From positions 248,001 to 312,000 of the forward strand of contig NZ_MWQY01000002.1 of NCBI RefSeq assembly GCF_002087085.1: a stretch of DNA of 64,000 nucleotides, given 5' to 3'. The translations under genes and the position numbers were made by a program. The DNA comes from Marispirochaeta aestuarii (GTDB lineage Bacteria > Spirochaetota > Spirochaetia > JC444 > Marispirochaetaceae). This document shows, in pieces, positions 5,856 to 26,692 of the stretch. Each line of letters opens with the position of its first letter. Position 1 is the first letter of the stretch. The notes under the pieces were generated by a model, which was given only the letters and a program-made list of their open reading frames with translations, searched no databases and had not been told where the DNA came from.

Positions 5856-5918
5856 CAGGGTATATCCCGGAAAAGCCTCTTTTTAAAAACCCATGAATGG
5901 CTCATACTGCCCTTGAGA

Positions 5919-6887
5919 ATGAAAAACCCGATCATTCTGCTTTTCCCGCTTTTTCTACCGCTGTTTCTTCTGCCCTTGAAACTCCGGGCTGATGAACCGT
6001 CGTGGAAAGTCGGGCTGATCGGAGAATACGGTTTCGGCGAAAGCTCCTATGAGCTCCGGGTGGACGACGGGACCGAGTCGGTGCGGAGCCTCCTGGTTTT
6101 TCCCCTGGATACCCTCTACCTTGGACTGGAGGCGGAGCATGAGAATACATCCGGATCACGGCGGTATGCAGTAAAACTCCTTACCAACGTCGCAGCTCCG
6201 GGAGACAGAATGACCGATGAGGACTGGCTTGATTTACTCGATCCTGCTGAACCTGAATTCATCTTCACCGAGTCCAATCTGGATTACCGCTCCCTGGACC
6301 TGGCTCTTGAGGGGATCTGGGAAATCGGGGATTACCGGTTTTTCCGGCTCTTTTTCGGGGCCGGCTACCGTTTTCTGTGGATACATCAGCTGATTACCGA
6401 TTATCAGGGATTTCGTCTGCATGATGACGATGAAAACGGCAGCATAGACAGGAAAGAGATAATCCCCTACACCGACAAAGATGCCATCGACTACAGCATT
6501 ATTTACCACATAATCGATGCAGGGCTCCACGGAGAGACGGATCTCGGCAGACACTCCCGCGTCGCGATCTCCGCAGCCCCGTCCCTGGGAATGGCCTTCG
6601 ACCGGGACGATCATCTTCTCAGGAGCAAGCTCTCCACAGGCCGGGGATTCGGCTACGGCTTCGTGCTCCGCGGGAATATTGAGTTCCGCAGGCCCGGGAC
6701 GGGACGGACCGTTACTCCCTATCTGAGGATCTACGGCTCCTACAGGTGGTTCTTCTCTCCCGGGGTACAGCGGCAGTACTGGTACGACGATGCGGACAAA
6801 CCCGAAGGAACGGAATACGACGGTCTGGTGCATGATATGGAGCTCATCGATCCCCGCATGGGAATCAGCGCGGGACTGCGTTTTTAA
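5919..6887 (+). CDS. Probable outer-membrane beta-barrel protein
   Basis: About 322 residues with a strong signal peptide (PIILLFPLFLPLFLLPLKLRADEP). The mature region has repeated amphipathic beta-strand patterns rich in tyrosine, glycine and arginine (RFFRLFFGAGYRFLWI, GFGYGFVLRGNIEFRR, PYLRIYGSYRWFF). It ends in GISAGLRF, and a terminal phenylalanine is the usual outer-membrane assembly signal. The segment DDDENGSIDRKE resembles an exposed acidic, possibly calcium-binding loop. Family not recognised. ATG 5919 is preferred to TTG 5913, though neither has a strong ribosome site. The stop overlaps the convergent cyclase gene by a few bases. Confidence 0.75.
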   Translation: MKNPIILLFPLFLPLFLLPLKLRADEPSWKVGLIGEYGFGESSYELRVDDGTESVRSLLVFPLDTLYLGLEAEHENTSGSRRYAVKLLTNVAAPGDRMTDEDWLDLLDPAEPEFIFTESNLDYRSLDLALEGIWEIGDYRFFRLFFGAGYRFLWIHQLITDYQGFRLHDDDENGSIDRKEIIPYTDKDAIDYSIIYHIIDAGLHGETDLGRHSRVAISAAPSLGMAFDRDDHLLRSKLSTGRGFGYGFVLRGNIEFRRPGTGRTVTPYLRIYGSYRWFFSPGVQRQYWYDDADKPEGTEYDGLVHDMELIDPRMGISAGLRF

Positions 6888-7843
6888 GCCTTCTGTTCAG
6901 GCATGATCCTGTTGCGCCCCGCCTCTTTGGCACGGTAGAGGTTATCGTCTGCAACCTGCACCAGCTGTGAGGTGCTCTCCCCGTTCTGCAGAGAGTTCAA
7001 CCCGCCGCTGATGGTAACTTTTACACCCTGCTTACCCCAGGTATGGGACTCAATCTTTGAACGGATACGCTCGGCAATCACGAGCCCGCCCTCGAGGGAC
7101 GTATTGGGGAGAATAAGAATAAACTCCTCCCCGCCGTAGCGGCCCGGTACATCCCCTTCGCGGATACCGGAACGAATAATCTCCGCCACATCCACCAGAA
7201 CCGTGTCTCCAAAGGGATGGCCATGGGTGTCATTCAGCTCTTTAAAATAGTCAAGGTCCAGCATGGCCACGGTAAGGGGATTATCGTAACGCCTGGCATT
7301 GGCCGCTTCGTGCTGGAGCCGATCCATGCAGTGGGAATGGTTATACAGGCCAGTCAGCCCGTCGGTTATGGCAAGCTGCTGCAGCAGGGCATTCTGCTTG
7401 CCGAGTTCATCCATATAATGGATTATCAAACGCCGGTTACGAACCAGTTCAATATGGTTACGCACCCGCACCAGGAGCTCTTCCGCGTTGAAGGGTTTCT
7501 GGATGTAGTCAGCAGCTCCCAGCTTGAAACCCTTGATAACATCTTCGGTTTCTGTCCGGGCGGAGAGGAATATAACCGGGATGTCCTTCATTTCAACGGA
7601 TTCCTTCATAAGCCTGCAGGCTTCAAATCCGTCCATTTCCGGCATCATGACATCCATCAGGACAAGATCCGGCTTGACCCTGGGAATCATCTCCAGAGCC
7701 TTTTTTCCATTGGAGGCGGGGGCAATCTTGAAACCTTCTTCCTTGAGGAGCTTGCCCAGGAACTGGATATTAGCCGGGACATCATCCACAATCATGATGG
7801 CCATCTCTTCCTGTTCCTGAATGGGCGTGAGGGTTTCAATCAC
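6884..7843 (-). CDS. Response regulator diguanylate cyclase (REC-GGDEF)
   Basis: 319 residues. The receiver domain has phospho-acceptor D64 (LVLMDVMMPEMDG) and conserved lysine (IQKPFNAEE), followed by a coiled linker and a GGDEF domain with an intact active-site GGEEF at 237-241. An RxxD inhibitory site (R228-D231) lies five residues before it, so product feedback by cyclic di-GMP is expected. The layout is like WspR/PleD-type cyclases: phosphorylation drives dimerisation and synthesis of c-di-GMP from GTP. It overlaps the upstream hybrid kinase gene by 4 nt (ATGA), so the two are translated together. The kinase is the natural candidate phosphodonor. Confidence 0.95.
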   Translation of the reverse strand: MIETLTPIQEQEEMAIMIVDDVPANIQFLGKLLKEEGFKIAPASNGKKALEMIPRVKPDLVLMDVMMPEMDGFEACRLMKESVEMKDIPVIFLSARTETEDVIKGFKLGAADYIQKPFNAEELLVRVRNHIELVRNRRLIIHYMDELGKQNALLQQLAITDGLTGLYNHSHCMDRLQHEAANARRYDNPLTVAMLDLDYFKELNDTHGHPFGDTVLVDVAEIIRSGIREGDVPGRYGGEEFILILPNTSLEGGLVIAERIRSKIESHTWGKQGVKVTISGGLNSLQNGESTSQLVQVADDNLYRAKEAGRNRIMPEQKA

Positions 7844-10800
7844 AGTGATTCCTCTGATTCGTTATTGTCGACGTCCAGAATACGCGGAAAATCCGCCATT
7901 GCCTTCTCTATCCCCTCGATATCAACCGCGGAAGCTGCCAGATGCAGCCCTATACCCCAGCGGCGAAGATCCTCGGCACCGCGTTCTCCCGCAGTTGCGG
8001 CAACTCGCATCGCGAAATCCTCCAGATCTTCAGTATAATATGAATCGGTCAGATTTCGCCACTCCTCAAGGAATAGTTCACGAAATTCCGCGTAAACTCC
8101 AGGCTCAGCGTGCAATTCTGCGGAAAGAGCTTCTTTTTTATAGGATCCTGCCCCTTTATCGTCTACAACAGGGCTCTGCTGCAGATCCAGAGGCAGATAG
8201 CGTTTCAGCAGGTCCATAAACACCCTGTGCCGCAGGGGTTTAACCAGGACCTCCCGTATGCCGGCTTCCACGGCACGGGCCCGGGTTTCGGGAATAATGG
8301 ATGCGGTGAGTCCGATAATGGGCACCTCGTCTCCCAGCACCTCCTTTAGATCCTCCGCGATTTTCATACCGCTTTTTCCCGTCAGCCCCAGAGAGACGAT
8401 AAGCAAATCCGGTCTCTCTTCTCTGGCAAGATCGACTGCAGTACTGCTGTCGGTGGCACTGATGAGCCGAAGGTTCCTGGCCGCATCCAGGTACTTTTTC
8501 AGCAGCAGCAGATTATCCTCCACATCGTCAACCGCCAGGATCGTGGCATCCCTGAAGTACATATCCCGATGCTCTTCCCGGTACTGATCGTCCCCATCCG
8601 CGGCTTTTCCGTAAACCGGAACTTTCCGGAGTACAAGAGAGAACTCGCTCCCCGAACCTGTTTCACTCTTAAGAGAGATCCCCCCCCCCATTATCCGTGC
8701 AAGACGCTGGGAGATCGTGAGCCCCAGTCCGGTTCCTCCGTACTTGTTGGTATCCTGACTTCGGACCTGATGAAAGGCCTGGAAGATGGCCTCCTGCTCC
8801 TCCGCCGGAATTCCGGTGCCCGTATCCCTGACGGCGAACACGATGTCCGCAGTTTTCTTCCCGCTCTTCAGGAGGCGGGCATCCAGTTCCACCCTGCCTT
8901 TTTCGGTGAACTTTACGGAATTACCGACAAGATTAAACAGGATTTGACGGAGACGGATTCCGTCCAGGATAAGCCTGGGGGGAAAATCATCTTCAATGCT
9001 GAAACTGATGTCGAGCCCCTTCTTTTCGCTGCTGACGGAGAAGATATCCATAACCTCCCGCCCCAGTTCATGGATACTCACCGGGCCGGGATTGAGCTCC
9101 AGTTTTCCGGCATCGATCTTCGAAAGATCGAGGATGTCATTGATCAGGCCCAGCAACGCGGCACCGCTCTTTTGAATAATGGACAGATAGGAACGATGGT
9201 CCGGATCGCCGATCTCCCTGAGAAGGACCTCGGTAAAGCCGAGGATAGCGTTCATGGGGGTTCTGATTTCGTGACTCATGTTGGCGATAAAATGGCTTTT
9301 TGCCTGGTTCGCCTCCTCGGCCTGGTGCTTTGCATCCTTCAGACGAGCCTCGGCGAGCTTTCGCTGGGAGATATCCCTGATAATGATCTGCACAATCCCT
9401 GCCCGGGGATCCAGCAGGGAGGCGGATATCTCAGTGTCGATCTCCTCGCCCTGCTTGTTGAACAGTACCTGCTCCTTTCGCAGCTGAACCCCCTGCTGCA
9501 GCTTGCGGATCATCTGGTCGATGCTGCTCTTCCTGCGATAGAGAGCCAGGACATTGAGACTCTCCAGTTCCTCCTTCTGATACGCAAAGAGAGCCGCTGC
9601 GCTCTCGTTAACCTCCAGGATGTCTCCGGAGGCGTCGTGAATTACAATGGCGTCGTTGGAGTTCTGAAAAAGGGCCCGGTATTTTCGTTCACTGTTCTCG
9701 AGCCGGATATTCCGCTCCCGCTCTTCGGTAATGTCCTCGTAGAGACCCAGGACCGCGACAGCCTTTCCCGAAGCGTCGATAATCGGGATTTTGCTGGAAC
9801 GTACATAATGGACAAGTCCCCCCGACCTGGGCATCGGTTCCTGGATATTCATCTTGGGGGTACGGGAACGAAGGATCTTCTCGTCATCCCGGTAGAAGAA
9901 CTGGGCTACCTCCGCGGGAGAAAGCTGATCGTCAGTCTTTCCGATAATATCCTGCGGCGACTCATACCCGGTATCCTCGGCAAAGCGTTTGTTGCAGCCG
10001 AGATAGACCCCGGAGGAGTCTTTCCAGAAAACGCTCATGGGTATATTGTCCAAAATAAGGGAGAGCATCTGCCGGGACTGCTGCAGCTCCCGTGTCCGGG
10101 AATCGACCAGAGATTCCACCTCCGCCTCGCGGTTGATGCTGTTGAGTAGGTAAGAAAATGCCAGGAGGATAAAGATTATTCCAAAGGAAAGTACTATCTC
10201 CGGTAAATATAGACCGGCCCCGATAAGAATCCACCCGGCAGGCCCCTGATACCAGCTGTTCGCAGTTGCGGAAAGAACCTCGAATGCCACTGCAGTGAAG
10301 ATTATTCCAAGAACCGTCAAAATAAAGACGGAACGATACCGTCCCCTCAGAACCCGGGTCAGGCGCCGTTCCCGCATATAATTGAGGGCCATAACAAAGC
10401 CGTACACAACAACTGCGACGGAAGACAGGAACAATACAATCGGGACCAGAGTTCTGACAATACCGCCCCTGTTGAAAATGCCTCCTTCGTTCAGCGAGCC
10501 CAGTAAAACGACCAGGACAGCACTGTTCAGCAGCATTCCCTGCTGACGCATACTGAAAAACAGGGGGCCGAGGAGAACCAGAAATATGGGCATATAAAGA
10601 AGAAAGGGATCAAGAAAATAACGGTGTAAGACACCGAAAGTCAGAACGGATACAAGAAAAAGAAGAAAGATAATCCGCTGGGTGACGGAATCAAGCTTTC
10701 CCGCAGACCGGGGATCAAAAAAAGAAAGCAGCCACGGGGTCATAACAAGGGCCGCACCAAAAATACTGATAAACCAGAGAATGAAATATCCGCCGGGATT

Positions 10801-11247
10801 GGCTCTGTTTCCAATTATGTAATATAAAACCATTTCCCCGGCTGACGCGGCAACCAGGGCAGCAACTGCAGATGCTGTTATTAATGGGAGAATATCCCTG
10901 CTTCTTCTGAGAGTGCTTCCATCGCCCAAAGACGGCCGCAACAGAAACCCGAAAACCCAGCTGGCTGCAGAGTAACCGATGGACATAATTACTGAAACCA
11001 GGAAAAAGGATATTGATGGAACACTGCGAGACCCTGCGGTATTGATTAAAAAAGGCAGAAATACCCCCAGGGTAATTCCCAGGTAACCATAGGTCCCGAA
11101 CAGATATCCGGCAGCCAGGGCGACTCCTGCAGCGGGCCAATAGGTCGAAACCATGGCATCGCCGAGCTCGAAAAACCGGCCAATTACCATAAACAGGTAG
11201 TACGCAGCAGCTGTACCCAGGACCTGAAGCAGTTTTTTACCCTTCAT
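7840..11247 (-). CDS. MASE1-PAS-PAS hybrid histidine kinase with degenerate receiver and Hpt-like tail
   Basis: 1135 residues. An N-terminal MASE1-like multi-pass sensor (to about 380) is followed by two PAS domains (DNIPMSVFWKDSSG and LFQNSNDAIVIHDASG), then HisKA with H658 (NMSHEIRTPMNAILGF) and an HATPase domain with the G2 box GGTGLGLTISQRLARIMGGG. A receiver-like domain follows (ILAVDDVEDNLLLL), in which the phospho-acceptor aspartate is replaced by S952 (LLIVSLGLTGKSG) while the lysine (VLVKPLRH) is kept. The C-terminal 90 residues look like an Hpt helix bundle in which the histidine motif HxxKG is lost (MRVAATAGERGAEDL). Kinase and ATPase motifs look intact. It overlaps the REC-GGDEF gene by 4 nt, which suggests phosphate goes to that separate receiver. 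Confidence 0.9.
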   Translation of the reverse strand: MKGKKLLQVLGTAAAYYLFMVIGRFFELGDAMVSTYWPAAGVALAAGYLFGTYGYLGITLGVFLPFLINTAGSRSVPSISFFLVSVIMSIGYSAASWVFGFLLRPSLGDGSTLRRSRDILPLITASAVAALVAASAGEMVLYYIIGNRANPGGYFILWFISIFGAALVMTPWLLSFFDPRSAGKLDSVTQRIIFLLFLVSVLTFGVLHRYFLDPFLLYMPIFLVLLGPLFFSMRQQGMLLNSAVLVVLLGSLNEGGIFNRGGIVRTLVPIVLFLSSVAVVVYGFVMALNYMRERRLTRVLRGRYRSVFILTVLGIIFTAVAFEVLSATANSWYQGPAGWILIGAGLYLPEIVLSFGIIFILLAFSYLLNSINREAEVESLVDSRTRELQQSRQMLSLILDNIPMSVFWKDSSGVYLGCNKRFAEDTGYESPQDIIGKTDDQLSPAEVAQFFYRDDEKILRSRTPKMNIQEPMPRSGGLVHYVRSSKIPIIDASGKAVAVLGLYEDITEERERNIRLENSERKYRALFQNSNDAIVIHDASGDILEVNESAAALFAYQKEELESLNVLALYRRKSSIDQMIRKLQQGVQLRKEQVLFNKQGEEIDTEISASLLDPRAGIVQIIIRDISQRKLAEARLKDAKHQAEEANQAKSHFIANMSHEIRTPMNAILGFTEVLLREIGDPDHRSYLSIIQKSGAALLGLINDILDLSKIDAGKLELNPGPVSIHELGREVMDIFSVSSEKKGLDISFSIEDDFPPRLILDGIRLRQILFNLVGNSVKFTEKGRVELDARLLKSGKKTADIVFAVRDTGTGIPAEEQEAIFQAFHQVRSQDTNKYGGTGLGLTISQRLARIMGGGISLKSETGSGSEFSLVLRKVPVYGKAADGDDQYREEHRDMYFRDATILAVDDVEDNLLLLKKYLDAARNLRLISATDSSTAVDLAREERPDLLIVSLGLTGKSGMKIAEDLKEVLGDEVPIIGLTASIIPETRARAVEAGIREVLVKPLRHRVFMDLLKRYLPLDLQQSPVVDDKGAGSYKKEALSAELHAEPGVYAEFRELFLEEWRNLTDSYYTEDLEDFAMRVAATAGERGAEDLRRWGIGLHLAASAVDIEGIEKAMADFPRILDVDNNESEESL

Positions 11248-20194: not shown

Positions 20195-21406
20195 TCACCG
20201 TGTATTTTGCAGAATGCTGACGATGGTATCTTTAATCGAGAGAAAAACATCTACAAGCTCAGGATCAAACTGTTTGCCCGCCTTGGTCTTTATATATAAA
20301 AATGCCGACTCTTCATCCCAGGGATCCTTGTAGGTGCGGGGAGAAACCAGGGCATCAAAAACATCTGCTATGGCCACAATTCTGCCGGAGAGGGGAATCT
20401 CCTTACCGGTTTTTCCCGGTCCCGGTTTGAGGGTGTCGGAAAATATATTCTCGACATGGCCGGGATACCCGTTCCCGTCCCAGCGTTCATGGTGGGAGAG
20501 GGTTACCTCAAACGCGACCCTGTCCCATACGGAACTGCGCCTGGAAAAGAGACGGGCGCCGTAAATGGTATGCCAGACCATTGTCTCCTTGTCATCCTCG
20601 GAAAACTCATCTCCCTTTGAAAGAAGCTCGGAATCGAGTCCGACCTTGCCGATATCGTGCAGCAGAGCTGCCAGCCGCAGGGCCTCCTTACCTCTGTTAC
20701 GCTGAACCAGGGGCGTACCCATCCGGGCGCCGAAGGCGTCAAACAGAGCGGCGGAGTACTCCCCCACTCTCTGGGCGTGCAGACGCGATTCGTGGGGATC
20801 CCGCAGCTGGGATATCTCCACAAGACGCAGGATCATCTCTTTTGCAAACTCGGCCTTCTCGAGGGCCATTGCAGCGTGCTGGGCAAAGTAGGAAATAAAA
20901 AGCCTGTCCTGCTGAGAAAAGGGCACAGGGTTTCCTGTTTTATCCAGGGCATTGATCAGCTGAATAACCCCCAGGATTTTCCCTTCAGTATCTTTCAGAG
21001 GAACCGCAAGGATGGACCGGGTACGATAGTTGCTTTTCCTGTCAAACTCCGGATTGAACTCAAAAGAGACATCCCCCGGAATGGAATACACATCATCGAT
21101 CAACAGGGACTGACCTGTCTCGGCAACGAACCCGGCAATGGATTTTGTGTTGGCCGGGATACTGCGCGTCGTATACAGGTACTTGTTGTTTTCCCGTTCC
21201 CCCCGGTGGAAGAGGGTATCGTTTTCTATAAAGGCAAAATAGAGTTGATTATCCCTGAGCTGGTACAGAGTCCCGGCATCGGCTCTGACAAAAGTTCTTG
21301 CTTCATGAAGAATGTTTTCCAGGATAATATCAACATCTTTGAGGGAATGCAGTCTTTCAATAACCTTAAGCAAAGCTCCGGCGTCACGTACAGCAGGCAT
21401 ATGCAT
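20195..21406 (-). CDS. GAF / HD-GYP phosphodiesterase (paralogue 1)
   Basis: About 403 residues. The N-terminal GAF domain covers about residues 10-185 (ADAGTLYQLRDNQLYFAF through LGVIQLINALDKTG), and the C-terminal HD-GYP domain has HDIGKVGLDSELL, the HTIYGARLF histidine, LSHHERWDGNGYPG and ADVFDALVSPRTYK. HD-GYP proteins hydrolyse cyclic di-GMP to pGpG or GMP. All metal-ligand histidines and aspartates of the domain are visible. Start uncertain: ATG 21406 is chosen, while GTG 21439 would add 11 residues. A close paralogue lies at 25344-26579, so the two may have arisen by duplication around the hybrid kinase between them. Confidence 0.92.
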   Translation of the reverse strand: MHMPAVRDAGALLKVIERLHSLKDVDIILENILHEARTFVRADAGTLYQLRDNQLYFAFIENDTLFHRGERENNKYLYTTRSIPANTKSIAGFVAETGQSLLIDDVYSIPGDVSFEFNPEFDRKSNYRTRSILAVPLKDTEGKILGVIQLINALDKTGNPVPFSQQDRLFISYFAQHAAMALEKAEFAKEMILRLVEISQLRDPHESRLHAQRVGEYSAALFDAFGARMGTPLVQRNRGKEALRLAALLHDIGKVGLDSELLSKGDEFSEDDKETMVWHTIYGARLFSRRSSVWDRVAFEVTLSHHERWDGNGYPGHVENIFSDTLKPGPGKTGKEIPLSGRIVAIADVFDALVSPRTYKDPWDEESAFLYIKTKAGKQFDPELVDVFLSIKDTIVSILQNTR

Positions 21407-21478
21407 AAGTATACCCGTCTTTGGAAAAAACTCAAACACAGTTTCTATTTTTTCCGATAAAGGATATGCCGATTATAC

Positions 21479-24298
21479 TCAGAGATTCCGGCCGGACATC
21501 TCAATCCTCGCAAGATAGTCCTTGAGTCGCTTAAGCTCCGATTCGATTTCCTGCAGACAGGCCGGAGCATTCTGCATCGTACCGGCTTTTGCTTCAGCCT
21601 CCAGGAGCTTAGCCGCGGCGCCGACACTTTCAGCCCGGAGATTATAGGCCGCCCCTTTTACAGCATGGCTTTCCCGATGGACGACCAGATCGTCCATCGA
21701 ACTGACTCCCTGACGTATCCGCGCGATACGATCCTCCGCGTCGATAATAAAACCGGAAATGAGATCCCGGACGAAGCTTTTATTGTTGTTGAAATCAGAA
21801 AGGAGTCGTGAGAGATCTATGATTTCCCGGTGCGACGGCTCATTTCCATCCTCCCGGAAAAAATCCTCTGAAGCAGAATCTCCGCCGGAACTGCTCCAGC
21901 GCGCCGCCATATCGATCAGTTCATTCCGGCGGAAGGGTTTTACCAGTATATCGTTCATACCGGCCTCCATATATGCAGCGAAGTCCCTGGAATAGGCATT
22001 GGCCGTAAGGGCGATTACCGGAACAGAAATACCGGAGGAACGGATCCTTCTGACAACCTCGCATCCGTCCATATCCGGCATTGAAATATCCATAAAAACA
22101 CAATCGTATTCCCTGGTAAGAAGCAGATCCAGTGCTTCGGCCCCACCCCGGGCACATGCCACCCGGCAGCCTGCTTCAGCTAAATGGTGCTGTGCAATCG
22201 TGAGATTGCTTGGATAGTCATCCACGACCAGGATTCGGCAGTCAGGGGGAGGCAGCATACGGACAAGGGAATCCGGTCTCACCAGGGGATCGAAGATCCC
22301 GTCAGACTCGACACAACGCATCGGAACCTGTACATCAAAAACTGTCCCTTCCCCGTATACGCTGGAGACCCCGATGGTCCCGCCCATTTTATCAATAATC
22401 AGCTTGGAAATAGCTGTGCCCAGGCCAAAGCCCCGGGCACTCCGGGTGCGCCCCGCCTCCACCTGATAAAATTTGTCGAAAAGCCGTTTCAGATCGGCCT
22501 CTTTAATCCCGATGCCGGTGTCGGAGACGGTAAAATGCAGAAATACGATCTCCTCTGATTCATATTCACCGTCGGCGATCAGCGAAACCCTGCCCCGGGA
22601 GGTGAACTTGATACCGTTATCCAGAAGATTAATCAGTACCTGACGAAGTCTCAGTCCATCACCCAGAACCTGACGGGGCAGACCCGGACTGAGTTCCACA
22701 GAAAATCCTATGCCGCGGGCCTCCGCCTTGGGACGCAGGATCTCCTCAATTGACCGCAGAAGCTCGGGCACATCAAAGGGTTCCTCAATAAGGTCGAGTT
22801 TACCCGCCTCTATCTTGGATATATCGAGGAGCTGATCGATGAGTTCTGAAAGCCGTTGTGACTCTTCGACTATCAGTTCCGCGTACTGACGGGATCCTGC
22901 ATCCTGCCCCAGAGAGCCGGAAAGGGCCTCTCCGAATCCCATTATCGCATTCAAGGGGGTTCGCATCTCATGGCTGACATTGGCGAGAAAATCACTCTTC
23001 GCCCTGTTTGCTGTTTCTGCCCTCTCCGTTGCAGCATCGAGTTCAGCGGTTCGTTGAGCTACAAGGTCCTCGACCCTGGAGGTATAGTTTTCCAGCTCCG
23101 TTCTGGCCCGCATGGTCCTGAGAGCAAGGGAGGTAAAAATAGAGAGGTTGAAAATAAACAACCCCACCCCCTGAAGCCACATGAAGGGAGCTGCATACAG
23201 TCTGTTTCCGGAATCCGTCACCTTCAGTATGGCATAAACCATGTCATGCAGCCCGAAAAGAACGGCAATTACGATTCCGGCGAATATAAAGCGGGCGTCA
23301 GGATTACCGGTGAGCATGGCTTTGACGGTAATATGAAAGATATAAATCAGAACCGGAACCAGGGGAATGAGGGTTATGCTGAAAACGTCGTAGGCTTCGG
23401 ACTCATTTCCCGGAATAACAAGAATTATGGCGCTGAGAACCAGACTGTTGAGAAGAATCAGATACCGCAGCCACTTTCGTTCGTATATGGAAAAGTATTC
23501 CATAAAGGAGACGGCACAAAAGCCGATCGCCAGGGGAAGCGCGGCCTTTGATATGACAAAACTGAGCAGGGGGGGAAGAAAAAACGGTTCATAGGCCATT
23601 CGATAGAAGTAAAAGGCAAAGAACAGATTGGCCGCTCCTATGTAGAGATGAAAAATCTCGTTACGGCGCACCCGGAAATAGATAAGCGTATAGTAGACCA
23701 TGAAGATACAGAAAAAGGTATAAAGCTGGGCGTTAAAAAAATTAATACGCCGGGGGTTTATGAAATTGGAGAGTCCGTTCTTGCGGGCAATCTGGACATC
23801 ATGAACAAAGGCTTCCTGTTCCTGAATATCGAAATCCACAAAAACTTCGTTCACTCCGTTAAAATTGATCCTGTCCCGGGGCAGATCTATTAACGCAATC
23901 CTCCTCTGTTTTACGCTTCCGGTGGAAATCGGGCTGTCCTGCTCATCGAGGAGAGAACCATTCAGAAAAACCCGCAAAGAACCCAACACCTCCGTTTTCA
24001 GCAGAAATCCGCCGACGTTTCGGAACTGCGGGTTCACTGTGAACAGCGCGCGCTGCCGTATCTGTTTCGGCATACTTCCCTGGGGAAAATGCAGTATATC
24101 CCCGGGCTCGAGGAGTTGTCGGTGCTCACTGCCGTTATTCCAGATGATCTCCCATTGATACGCGACAGAACTCGGATCTTCTATTTTGTGAATATGTTTA
24201 GCCGCCGGATCTTCTCCCGAGAGGGGAAAAAGAAAGAGTACAAGAGCAGAGACAAACCAGACCCGCCAGACCGAAACGGAAGAACGATAATTCGCCAT
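21479..24298 (-). CDS. 7TMR-DISM-like hybrid histidine kinase with receiver and Hpt
   Basis: 939 residues. Signal-anchored N-terminal sensor domain (about 30-190) of the 7TMR-DISM-extracellular type, seven or so membrane helices (about 195-400), coiled-coil linker, HisKA with H443 (NVSHEMRTPLNAIMGF), HATPase with G boxes (DTGIGIKE, GFGLGTAISKLIIDKMGG), receiver with D737 (CVFMDISMPDMDG) and C-terminal Hpt with H878 (SHAVKGAAYNL). All phosphorelay residues are intact, so an internal four-step relay His-Asp-His is possible; the final receiver protein is not adjacent. Compare the MASE1 kinase at 7840, where the last two are lost. The start codon ATG 24298 has no clear ribosome site. Confidence 0.93.
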   Translation of the reverse strand: MANYRSSVSVWRVWFVSALVLFLFPLSGEDPAAKHIHKIEDPSSVAYQWEIIWNNGSEHRQLLEPGDILHFPQGSMPKQIRQRALFTVNPQFRNVGGFLLKTEVLGSLRVFLNGSLLDEQDSPISTGSVKQRRIALIDLPRDRINFNGVNEVFVDFDIQEQEAFVHDVQIARKNGLSNFINPRRINFFNAQLYTFFCIFMVYYTLIYFRVRRNEIFHLYIGAANLFFAFYFYRMAYEPFFLPPLLSFVISKAALPLAIGFCAVSFMEYFSIYERKWLRYLILLNSLVLSAIILVIPGNESEAYDVFSITLIPLVPVLIYIFHITVKAMLTGNPDARFIFAGIVIAVLFGLHDMVYAILKVTDSGNRLYAAPFMWLQGVGLFIFNLSIFTSLALRTMRARTELENYTSRVEDLVAQRTAELDAATERAETANRAKSDFLANVSHEMRTPLNAIMGFGEALSGSLGQDAGSRQYAELIVEESQRLSELIDQLLDISKIEAGKLDLIEEPFDVPELLRSIEEILRPKAEARGIGFSVELSPGLPRQVLGDGLRLRQVLINLLDNGIKFTSRGRVSLIADGEYESEEIVFLHFTVSDTGIGIKEADLKRLFDKFYQVEAGRTRSARGFGLGTAISKLIIDKMGGTIGVSSVYGEGTVFDVQVPMRCVESDGIFDPLVRPDSLVRMLPPPDCRILVVDDYPSNLTIAQHHLAEAGCRVACARGGAEALDLLLTREYDCVFMDISMPDMDGCEVVRRIRSSGISVPVIALTANAYSRDFAAYMEAGMNDILVKPFRRNELIDMAARWSSSGGDSASEDFFREDGNEPSHREIIDLSRLLSDFNNNKSFVRDLISGFIIDAEDRIARIRQGVSSMDDLVVHRESHAVKGAAYNLRAESVGAAAKLLEAEAKAGTMQNAPACLQEIESELKRLKDYLARIEMSGRNL

Positions 24299-25343: not shown

Positions 25344-26579
25344 CTATTCCTTGTCGGCGTACTTCTCGGCGATGGTCTGGATGGAAGGCAATACCTCGAA
25401 GAAAATATCCACAAGCTCGGGATCGAACTTGGTTCCCCTCATGCTGCGCATCTCACTGAGAACGTCATCCTCCGACCAGGCCTCTTTATATACCCTTTTG
25501 GACCGAAGGGCGTCATAGACATCGGCAATTGCCACAATACGGCCGAAGAGGGGGATTTCCGTGCCTTTTCTGCCGACGACCTTTTTTCTTCGTCCTAATG
25601 GTTTATTGGTCATGATATCCACATATCCCGGATACCCGGAACCGTCCCAGTTTTCATGATGGGTGAGGACGATTTCCCTTGCGATATCATCCAGTTCCGA
25701 GTGATTATCCACAAAGAGTTTTGCCCCGCTCAGGGTATGGGTCTTCATGATTTCGTACTCTTCATCGTTGAAGCGGGCGGGTTTTTTCAGAATGAGATCA
25801 CTGATCGCGACTTTACCCACATCGTGGAGCATGGCAGCCATACGCAGGTTATCCCGGTTCCGCTGTATCTCGTCCTCCGAGACACCATGATTCAGGGCCC
25901 ACTTCTCATAGATTTCCACCGAAAATCCGGCGACCCGGTTAACATGGGGTCCGGTCTCCTTGGGGTCCCGCAGCTCCGCCATACTGATCATGCGCAGCAG
26001 AATGGCCCTGGTCATCTGGGCCCTCTGCAGCGCCACCGTAACATTGGCTGCGAAATGGGTAACCAGGATCTCGTCCTCCCGGGTAAAGGGACAAATAACC
26101 CCGTCACATCCGATCTTGTTTATGAACTGGATAACCCCCAGTAAATCGTTATTGTTCGTTTTCAAAGGGATAGTGAGCATGGAACAGGAACGGTACCCCG
26201 AAAGCTGGTCGTACTTTTTGTTATACCCATAGGGTGCCCCTTCGGGGAGCTCATAGACATCGCTGATATTCAGCAGTTCTCCGGTGGCAGCGACATACCC
26301 GGATATGGATTTTTTGTCGATGGGAACCTCAAAAAACTTGTAAATAAGCTTGTTCCCCTTGGGCAGTTTGCGCTGCAGGCTGGCATTCTGTGCATAGGAT
26401 ATGGCAAGCTTATCCGCCTTCTTTATATAAATAGAGCCGGCATCGGCCTGCACAACCCGACGGGCTTCCGTGAGGATCCGCTCCAGGAGGATATCGACAT
26501 CCTTGATCTTGTTCAGTTCGGAATCAAGGGTTATTACATCCAATAGTTTTTCTGCATCAGCGCGGTAATCCCCGCTCAT
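25344..26579 (-). CDS. GAF / HD-GYP phosphodiesterase (paralogue 2)
   Basis: About 411 residues with the same domain order as the gene at 20195: GAF (ADAGSIYIKKADKLAISYAQ to LGVIQFINKIGCDG), then HD-GYP with MLHDVGKVAISDLIL, KTHTLSGAKLF, LTHHENWDGSGYPG and ADVYDALRSKRVYK. Metal ligands are intact. The start is ATG 26579, preceded by GGTGAG. The 26-residue insert between GYPG and IPLFGRIVAIADV (NKPLGRRKKVVGRKGTE) is basic, while in paralogue 1 it is shorter and neutral. It should break down cyclic di-GMP in response to a ligand sensed by GAF. Confidence 0.92.
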   Translation of the reverse strand: MSGDYRADAEKLLDVITLDSELNKIKDVDILLERILTEARRVVQADAGSIYIKKADKLAISYAQNASLQRKLPKGNKLIYKFFEVPIDKKSISGYVAATGELLNISDVYELPEGAPYGYNKKYDQLSGYRSCSMLTIPLKTNNNDLLGVIQFINKIGCDGVICPFTREDEILVTHFAANVTVALQRAQMTRAILLRMISMAELRDPKETGPHVNRVAGFSVEIYEKWALNHGVSEDEIQRNRDNLRMAAMLHDVGKVAISDLILKKPARFNDEEYEIMKTHTLSGAKLFVDNHSELDDIAREIVLTHHENWDGSGYPGYVDIMTNKPLGRRKKVVGRKGTEIPLFGRIVAIADVYDALRSKRVYKEAWSEDDVLSEMRSMRGTKFDPELVDIFFEVLPSIQTIAEKYADKE

Positions 26580-26692
26580 CAAATTCTCACCCCAGGTCTG
26601 GTATAATAATTAAAGGTCATTACCTTAAAATATAAACTGACGGTCCAGGAATGCAAACAGAGCCGTCCCGATTCTTTAAAAGATTTATTGCG

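Follow-up and report, generated by a model that had tools for sequence, protein, structure and literature searches.

The described system nearest to the gene pair analysed here is Hk1–Rrp1 of Borrelia burgdorferi, for which kinase-to-cyclase transfer is presumed from operon structure and genetics (PMC4013479). The present pair lies in a 64,000-nucleotide stretch of Marispirochaeta aestuarii DNA (contig NZ_MWQY01000002.1), referred to below as the window. In both cases a spirochaete hybrid kinase gene is directly followed by a REC-GGDEF gene, but the sensor of Hk1 is periplasmic while that of the window kinase is MASE1-like. Hk1-type pairs are found in four further, small genomes (G021, G043, G059 and G073), presumed to be Borreliaceae, and all four retain the receiver aspartate and the histidine of the Hpt site; the window kinase differs from these presumed relatives in having serine (S952) and methionine (M1080) at the two positions. 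The presumed Hk1 kinases L187–L190 have a conserved helical tail behind the Hpt domain, which is covered by no profile used.

Several other described systems resemble parts of the window kinase. Receivers that lack the acceptor aspartate, known as ALR or PsR, are reported to make up several percent of bacterial receivers (PMC12632262, PMC4395418). By their definition—a receiver recognised by Pfam that lacks a key active-site residue—the receiver of the window kinase belongs among them. It differs from the usual case in lying inside a kinase, ahead of a His-less Hpt-like bundle, and in having serine rather than glutamate, the commonest replacement. As to the Hpt histidine, a survey reports 90 of 10,312 Hpt domains without it (PMC12632262). 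In Agrobacterium VirA, a C-terminal receiver is described as recruiting the cognate response regulator without a phosphate relay (PMC4705274). There the recruiter is a receiver that binds the DNA-binding domain of VirG, whereas the recruiter proposed here is the Hpt-like bundle. Caulobacter ShkA also has a pseudo-receiver within a hybrid kinase (PMC7010744), but it keeps a second, phosphorylated receiver that has no counterpart in the window kinase. The features of the window that are discussed below, with the evidence for each, are as follows.

7840..11247, minus strand: sensor kinase, 1135 aa (ORF; Pfam; MASE1 above the cut-off in a homologue)
9106..9303, minus strand: HisKA domain, residues 649–714, with the phosphorylatable H659 in SHEIRTP (Pfam; residue check)
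8623..8964, minus strand: HATPase_c domain, residues 762–875 (Pfam)
8212..8541, minus strand: pseudo-receiver, residues 903–1012 (Pfam; residue alignments; structure model)
8392..8394, minus strand: codon of S952 (residue check)
7843..8160, minus strand: Hpt-like four-helix bundle lacking His, together with the linker that precedes it, residues about 1030–1135 (alignments; model; fold match; profile match)
6884..7843, minus strand: partner response regulator REC-GGDEF, 319 aa, GTG start (ORF; Pfam; residue check)
21479..24298, minus strand: control hybrid kinase with 7TMR-DISM, receiver D737 and true Hpt H878 (residue check; Pfam)

The window kinase consists, in order, of a MASE1-like membrane region, two PAS regions (Pfam), HisKA, HATPase_c, the pseudo-receiver and the His-less bundle. 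The MASE1 match (PF05231) scores 23.6 bits, below the Pfam cut-off of 29.8, while the homologue in genome G002 exceeds that cut-off at 31.2 bits. The initial annotation had described a seemingly intact kinase core with H658. Pfam recognises both HisKA and HATPase_c, in agreement with an intact core, but residue 658 is serine and the histidine is H659.

The receiver of the window kinase is recognised by PF00072 (53 bits; cut-off 30.2), and S952, in the context PDLLIVSLGL, occupies the position of the phospho-acceptor aspartate. The acidic pair D907 and D908, T981 and the lysine K1003 are all retained, as the initial annotation had stated for the pair and the lysine, and V1000 lies at the aromatic position three residues before the lysine. 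Aspartate is otherwise the rule at the acceptor site, being present in 157 of the 165 distinct receiver domains in the fetched loci (E<1e-5). A search of 148 related genomes gave matches at E 1e-100 or better in four, including the window's own. The nearest homologue, and the sole close one, is the G002 kinase (72% identity). It shares the serine at 952 and has asparagine in place of D907. The next homologue, in G001, has kept the aspartate but has a shortened receiver, scoring 20.8 bits against the receiver profile compared to 62.4 for the window kinase and a median of 106 over 91 internal receivers. In the kinase of the G003 pair, no receiver separates HATPase from the bundle.

A sequencing or assembly error at S952 might be considered, since the genome of the window is a 78-contig assembly. 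However, the G002 kinase carries serine here too, and the neighbouring P956 position is T in both kinases, so chance or error is ruled out as the source of S952. The G003 kinase was also considered as a plain orthologue that had lost its receiver. This reading was weakened by the kinase-core tree, which places the G003 kinase with L150, on a long branch and outside the clade of the window kinase, and by the finding of no MASE1 in it; G003 is therefore treated as a related pair.

Comparison of the window kinase with that of G002, given as dN alone and without dN/dS because dS is saturated, yielded 0.255 for the pseudo-receiver, 0.211 for HATPase, 0.202 for the membrane region, 0.143 for the bundle, 0.032 for HisKA and 0.030 for the receiver of the partner. 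The value for the pseudo-receiver is the highest among the folded domains tested. Because the serine is shared by the window kinase and G002, and the domain is shortened in G001 and absent from the related G003 kinase, the internal receiver is losing its function in this lineage, and these homologues support a recent loss of the aspartate.

The pseudo-receiver is nevertheless modelled with a receiver fold of alternating strands and helices, most of which reaches a pLDDT of about 90 or higher. In ShkA, the pseudo-receiver is reported to bind c-di-GMP on its beta5–alpha5 face, relieving autoinhibition (PMC7010744). A predicted domain that still folds, next to a partner that would make c-di-GMP, could similarly sense a ligand such as this product and feed back on the kinase. 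That a domain serving as a feedback site should be eroding or gone in relatives would be odd, and the pseudo-receiver of ShkA is followed by a second, real receiver where the window kinase has none. A ligand-sensing role, for which the likeness to ShkA is drawn at the level of domains, is decidedly unlikely.

The C-terminal bundle was said in the initial annotation to lack the HxxKG histidine, and M1080 does occupy the aligned position. The region can be aligned with kinase tails across the Spirochaetota. In one alignment, histidine is present at the Hpt site in none of 39 bundle copies and in all four true Hpt proteins, and the 39 bundle rows have D, E, K, M, S, N, Y, R, Q, L or A in this column. 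An AlphaFold2 model of the bundle has four helices with a mean pLDDT of 82, 69 of its 109 residues being at 90 or more. Of the solved structures, the one that matches best is the E. coli YojN (RcsD) Hpt domain, with Z 11.0 over 85 residues at 2.8 Å, followed by P. aeruginosa HptB with Z 9.6 and then by unrelated and designed four-helix bundles with Z 7 to 9. A Z of 11 falls in the range that helical bundles can reach by chance, and the fold match alone is indecisive. With hhalign, a bundle profile aligned in register with a profile of 12 true Hpt domains, at E 1.5e-6 and a probability of 90%.

Standard libraries do not name this domain. PF01627 (Hpt) gave no match at E up to 1 in the 16 bundle members scanned or in the full window kinase, and for this reason the family probably lies outside the Hpt survey mentioned above. 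The matches from Pfam and NCBIfam were weak and scattered, each confined to a single member, and a profile search of PDB sequences with the bundle returned weak unrelated rows and no Hpt. At 1e-8 or better, 29 of the phylum's 392 sampled genomes have a bundle match, and these represent 24 of 167 genera; at the looser 1e-3, 28 genomes in a sample of 198 have one, but the weakest of those matches include true Hpt proteins. Judged from these sequence comparisons, the bundle forms an old family with a distant relationship to Hpt and no covering model in Pfam or NCBIfam, and its missing histidine is not the product of recent decay. No description of a comparable His-less Hpt family in bacteria was found in the literature searched, to which most subscription journals do not belong, and the term 'pseudo-HPt' was found there only in plant papers. 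Searches of plasmids for spread beyond the phylum gave mostly receivers when receiver and bundle were used together, and no match when one bundle was used alone. A plasmid of Rhizobium sp. Q54 (L167) does encode a hybrid kinase with a weakly similar tail, whose gene overlaps that of a DNA-binding response regulator by 8 nt.

The initial annotation viewed both sites as lost from an internal relay that decayed into regulatory domains while output moved to the separate cyclase. A decay of both sites in one event was rejected, as the histidine is absent in 39/39 bundles while the aspartate is present in 29 of the 34 attached receivers. Since, in addition, 25 of 32 bundle kinases with an internal receiver already have a receiver gene behind them, the His-less bundle and the adjoining partner gene predate the loss of the aspartate at 952. 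Of the earlier view, then, the loss of the receiver aspartate and the intact cyclase are borne out, but neither the joint decay nor the notion that output 'moved' is. The bundle was most likely never a relay station in the recent past of the lineage.

The partner gene shares four nucleotides (7840–7843) with the kinase gene, at the start of the cyclase and the stop of the kinase. Its product has D64, GGEEF and RxxD, and the earlier observation of a 4-nt overlap with a REC-GGDEF gene with an intact D64 was thus confirmed. The pair was found in G002, G001 and G003, with partner identities of 90, 70 and 52%, respectively. In all four pairs, that of the window included, the aspartate, lysine, GGEEF and RxxD of the cyclase are kept, and the bundle of the kinase is retained. 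As the receiver is failing while the motifs of the cyclase are kept in 4/4, direct output to the separate cyclase is the sensible reading. Beyond the cyclase lies a convergent gene (5913–6887) that overlaps its end by 4 nt; its 324-aa product has no Pfam match and an N-terminus that looks by eye like a signal peptide. This gene is conserved beside the pair in G002 (65%) and G001 (43%).

Phosphate from H659 cannot be routed through the window kinase, because there is no acceptor at 952 or 1080, and D64 of the overlapping gene's product is the sole linked acceptor. We favour, at a probability of roughly 60%, a two-component pair rather than a phosphorelay, in which phosphate would pass directly from H659 to D64, the pseudo-receiver would be at most regulatory and the bundle would dock or tune the partner. 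Autophosphorylation of H659 would be controlled by the membrane and PAS sensor. As expected from established two-component chemistry, the phosphate would then be transferred without an intermediate to D64 in the REC-GGDEF product of the overlapping gene, and phosphorylation of D64 would turn on c-di-GMP synthesis. The internal receiver, which cannot take phosphate, would at most persist in a regulatory role, still folded but eroding in the genus. The bundle would keep the kinase core and the receiver of the neighbouring partner close together, or tune the reaction. The kinase probably switches the adjoining cyclase directly. The usual practice of counting domains makes a hybrid kinase a phosphorelay; here this would give the wrong wiring, since the two downstream domains cannot carry phosphate.

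Alternatively, H659 may feed an unlinked receiver or Hpt protein, with the overlapping cyclase being phosphorylated from elsewhere. Partners for such cross-talk exist, since the genome of the window has 13 Pfam Hpt matches and many receivers, but the 4-nt overlap of the genes and the retention of the pair in four genomes make this very improbable.

A docking role for the bundle is suggested by its fold, by the company of receiver genes and by its survival without an internal receiver, and on these sequence-based grounds it may be a docking device. To be weighed against this, the structure model (pTM 0.56) has a disordered linker and no fixed packing of the bundle on the pseudo-receiver. It could be argued instead that a receiver-then-Hpt phosphorelay is vanishing and has left these two domains behind as passive relics, only the kinase core and the cyclase being of consequence. 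The pseudo-receiver fits such a fate, being fast-evolving (dN 0.255), shortened in G001 and absent from the related G003 kinase. The bundle does not: each of the four pairs retains it, as do seven kinases that lack an internal receiver—six of which are still followed by a receiver gene—and its dN is below that of HATPase and the membrane region. As a relic would not be expected to outlast the receiver in several lineages, this explanation appears unlikely.

The company of the bundle was examined across the phylum by classing the kinases in the fetched loci by profile matches, and counting a receiver gene as following when it shares the strand of the kinase and its receiver domain begins between −60 and +450 nt relative to the kinase stop. 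As tail-less controls served the kinases with the highest similarity to that of the window, ranked by score, together with any others present by chance in the fetched loci. A receiver gene follows 25/32 kinases with bundle and internal receiver and 4/4 with a bundle but no receiver, compared to 2/30 tail-less hybrids (29/36 versus 2/30, Fisher p 6e-10, kinship ignored). The corresponding figures are 4/9 for true-Hpt kinases, 5/8 for hybrids with other tails and 2/7 for kinases with neither receiver nor tail. Because true-Hpt kinases also have a receiver gene behind them in 4/9 (p 0.04 against the bundle group), it is not beyond doubt that the link is special to the bundle. The association also tracks the kinase tree, with only 7 independent contrasts, 4 of them on well supported branches, and a sign test that is not significant. 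A later batch of four bundle kinases, three of them receiver-less and one (L202) sharing its genus with L088, gave a receiver gene behind three. Of the 36 bundle kinases, seven lack a following receiver gene, although two of these (L101 and L102) have one in front.

The outputs of the partners are varied. GGDEF and HATPase were assigned by profile, and SpoIIE, HD-GYP, HisKA_2 and a sigma-54 activator by Pfam; in five of ten partners scanned with Pfam, the receiver stands alone or is joined only by a weak match below threshold. We tentatively suggest, as a possibility with the odds somewhat against it, that Spirochaetota kinases share a pseudo-Hpt family, a phosphotransfer fold without its histidine that now serves to dock the receiver encoded by the adjacent gene, be the output of that gene a cyclase, phosphodiesterase, phosphatase, kinase or sigma-54 activator, and that docking frees the internal receiver to decay. 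Docking of this kind would explain why receivers are repeatedly lost or crippled while the bundle stays. A His-less Hpt-like family missed by standard libraries and mostly found beside a partner receiver gene offers a concrete and cheap test of how partners are chosen.

Impaired receivers occur in 9/37 bundle kinases and 1/32 tail-less kinases (p 0.016), a post hoc count that ignores kinship and is not used as evidence. The receivers of two bundle kinases, L092 and L121, have neither acid pair, aspartate nor lysine, and no receiver gene lies behind them. The HisKA domain of L121 is barely recognised (E 0.0056), and both may be wholly degenerate kinases. Three loci in other genomes of the phylum (L094, L095 and L098) have a receiver-less bundle kinase flanked upstream by a gene ending in an Asp-less receiver, with S, S and N at the site, and downstream by a receiver gene, which is REC-GGDEF in L094 and L095. 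The upstream gene of L094 encodes 7TMR-DISM and a class III nucleotide cyclase. A similar kinase with a REC-GGDEF gene is found at L199.

The 7TMR hybrid kinase elsewhere in the window (21479–24298), put forward in the initial annotation as a control that keeps all its sites, does have D737 and H878, and Pfam recognises its Hpt domain at 33.1 bits. Genes of GAF and HD-GYP type flank it on both sides (20195–21439 and 25344–26582), and its surroundings are likely a c-di-GMP neighbourhood.
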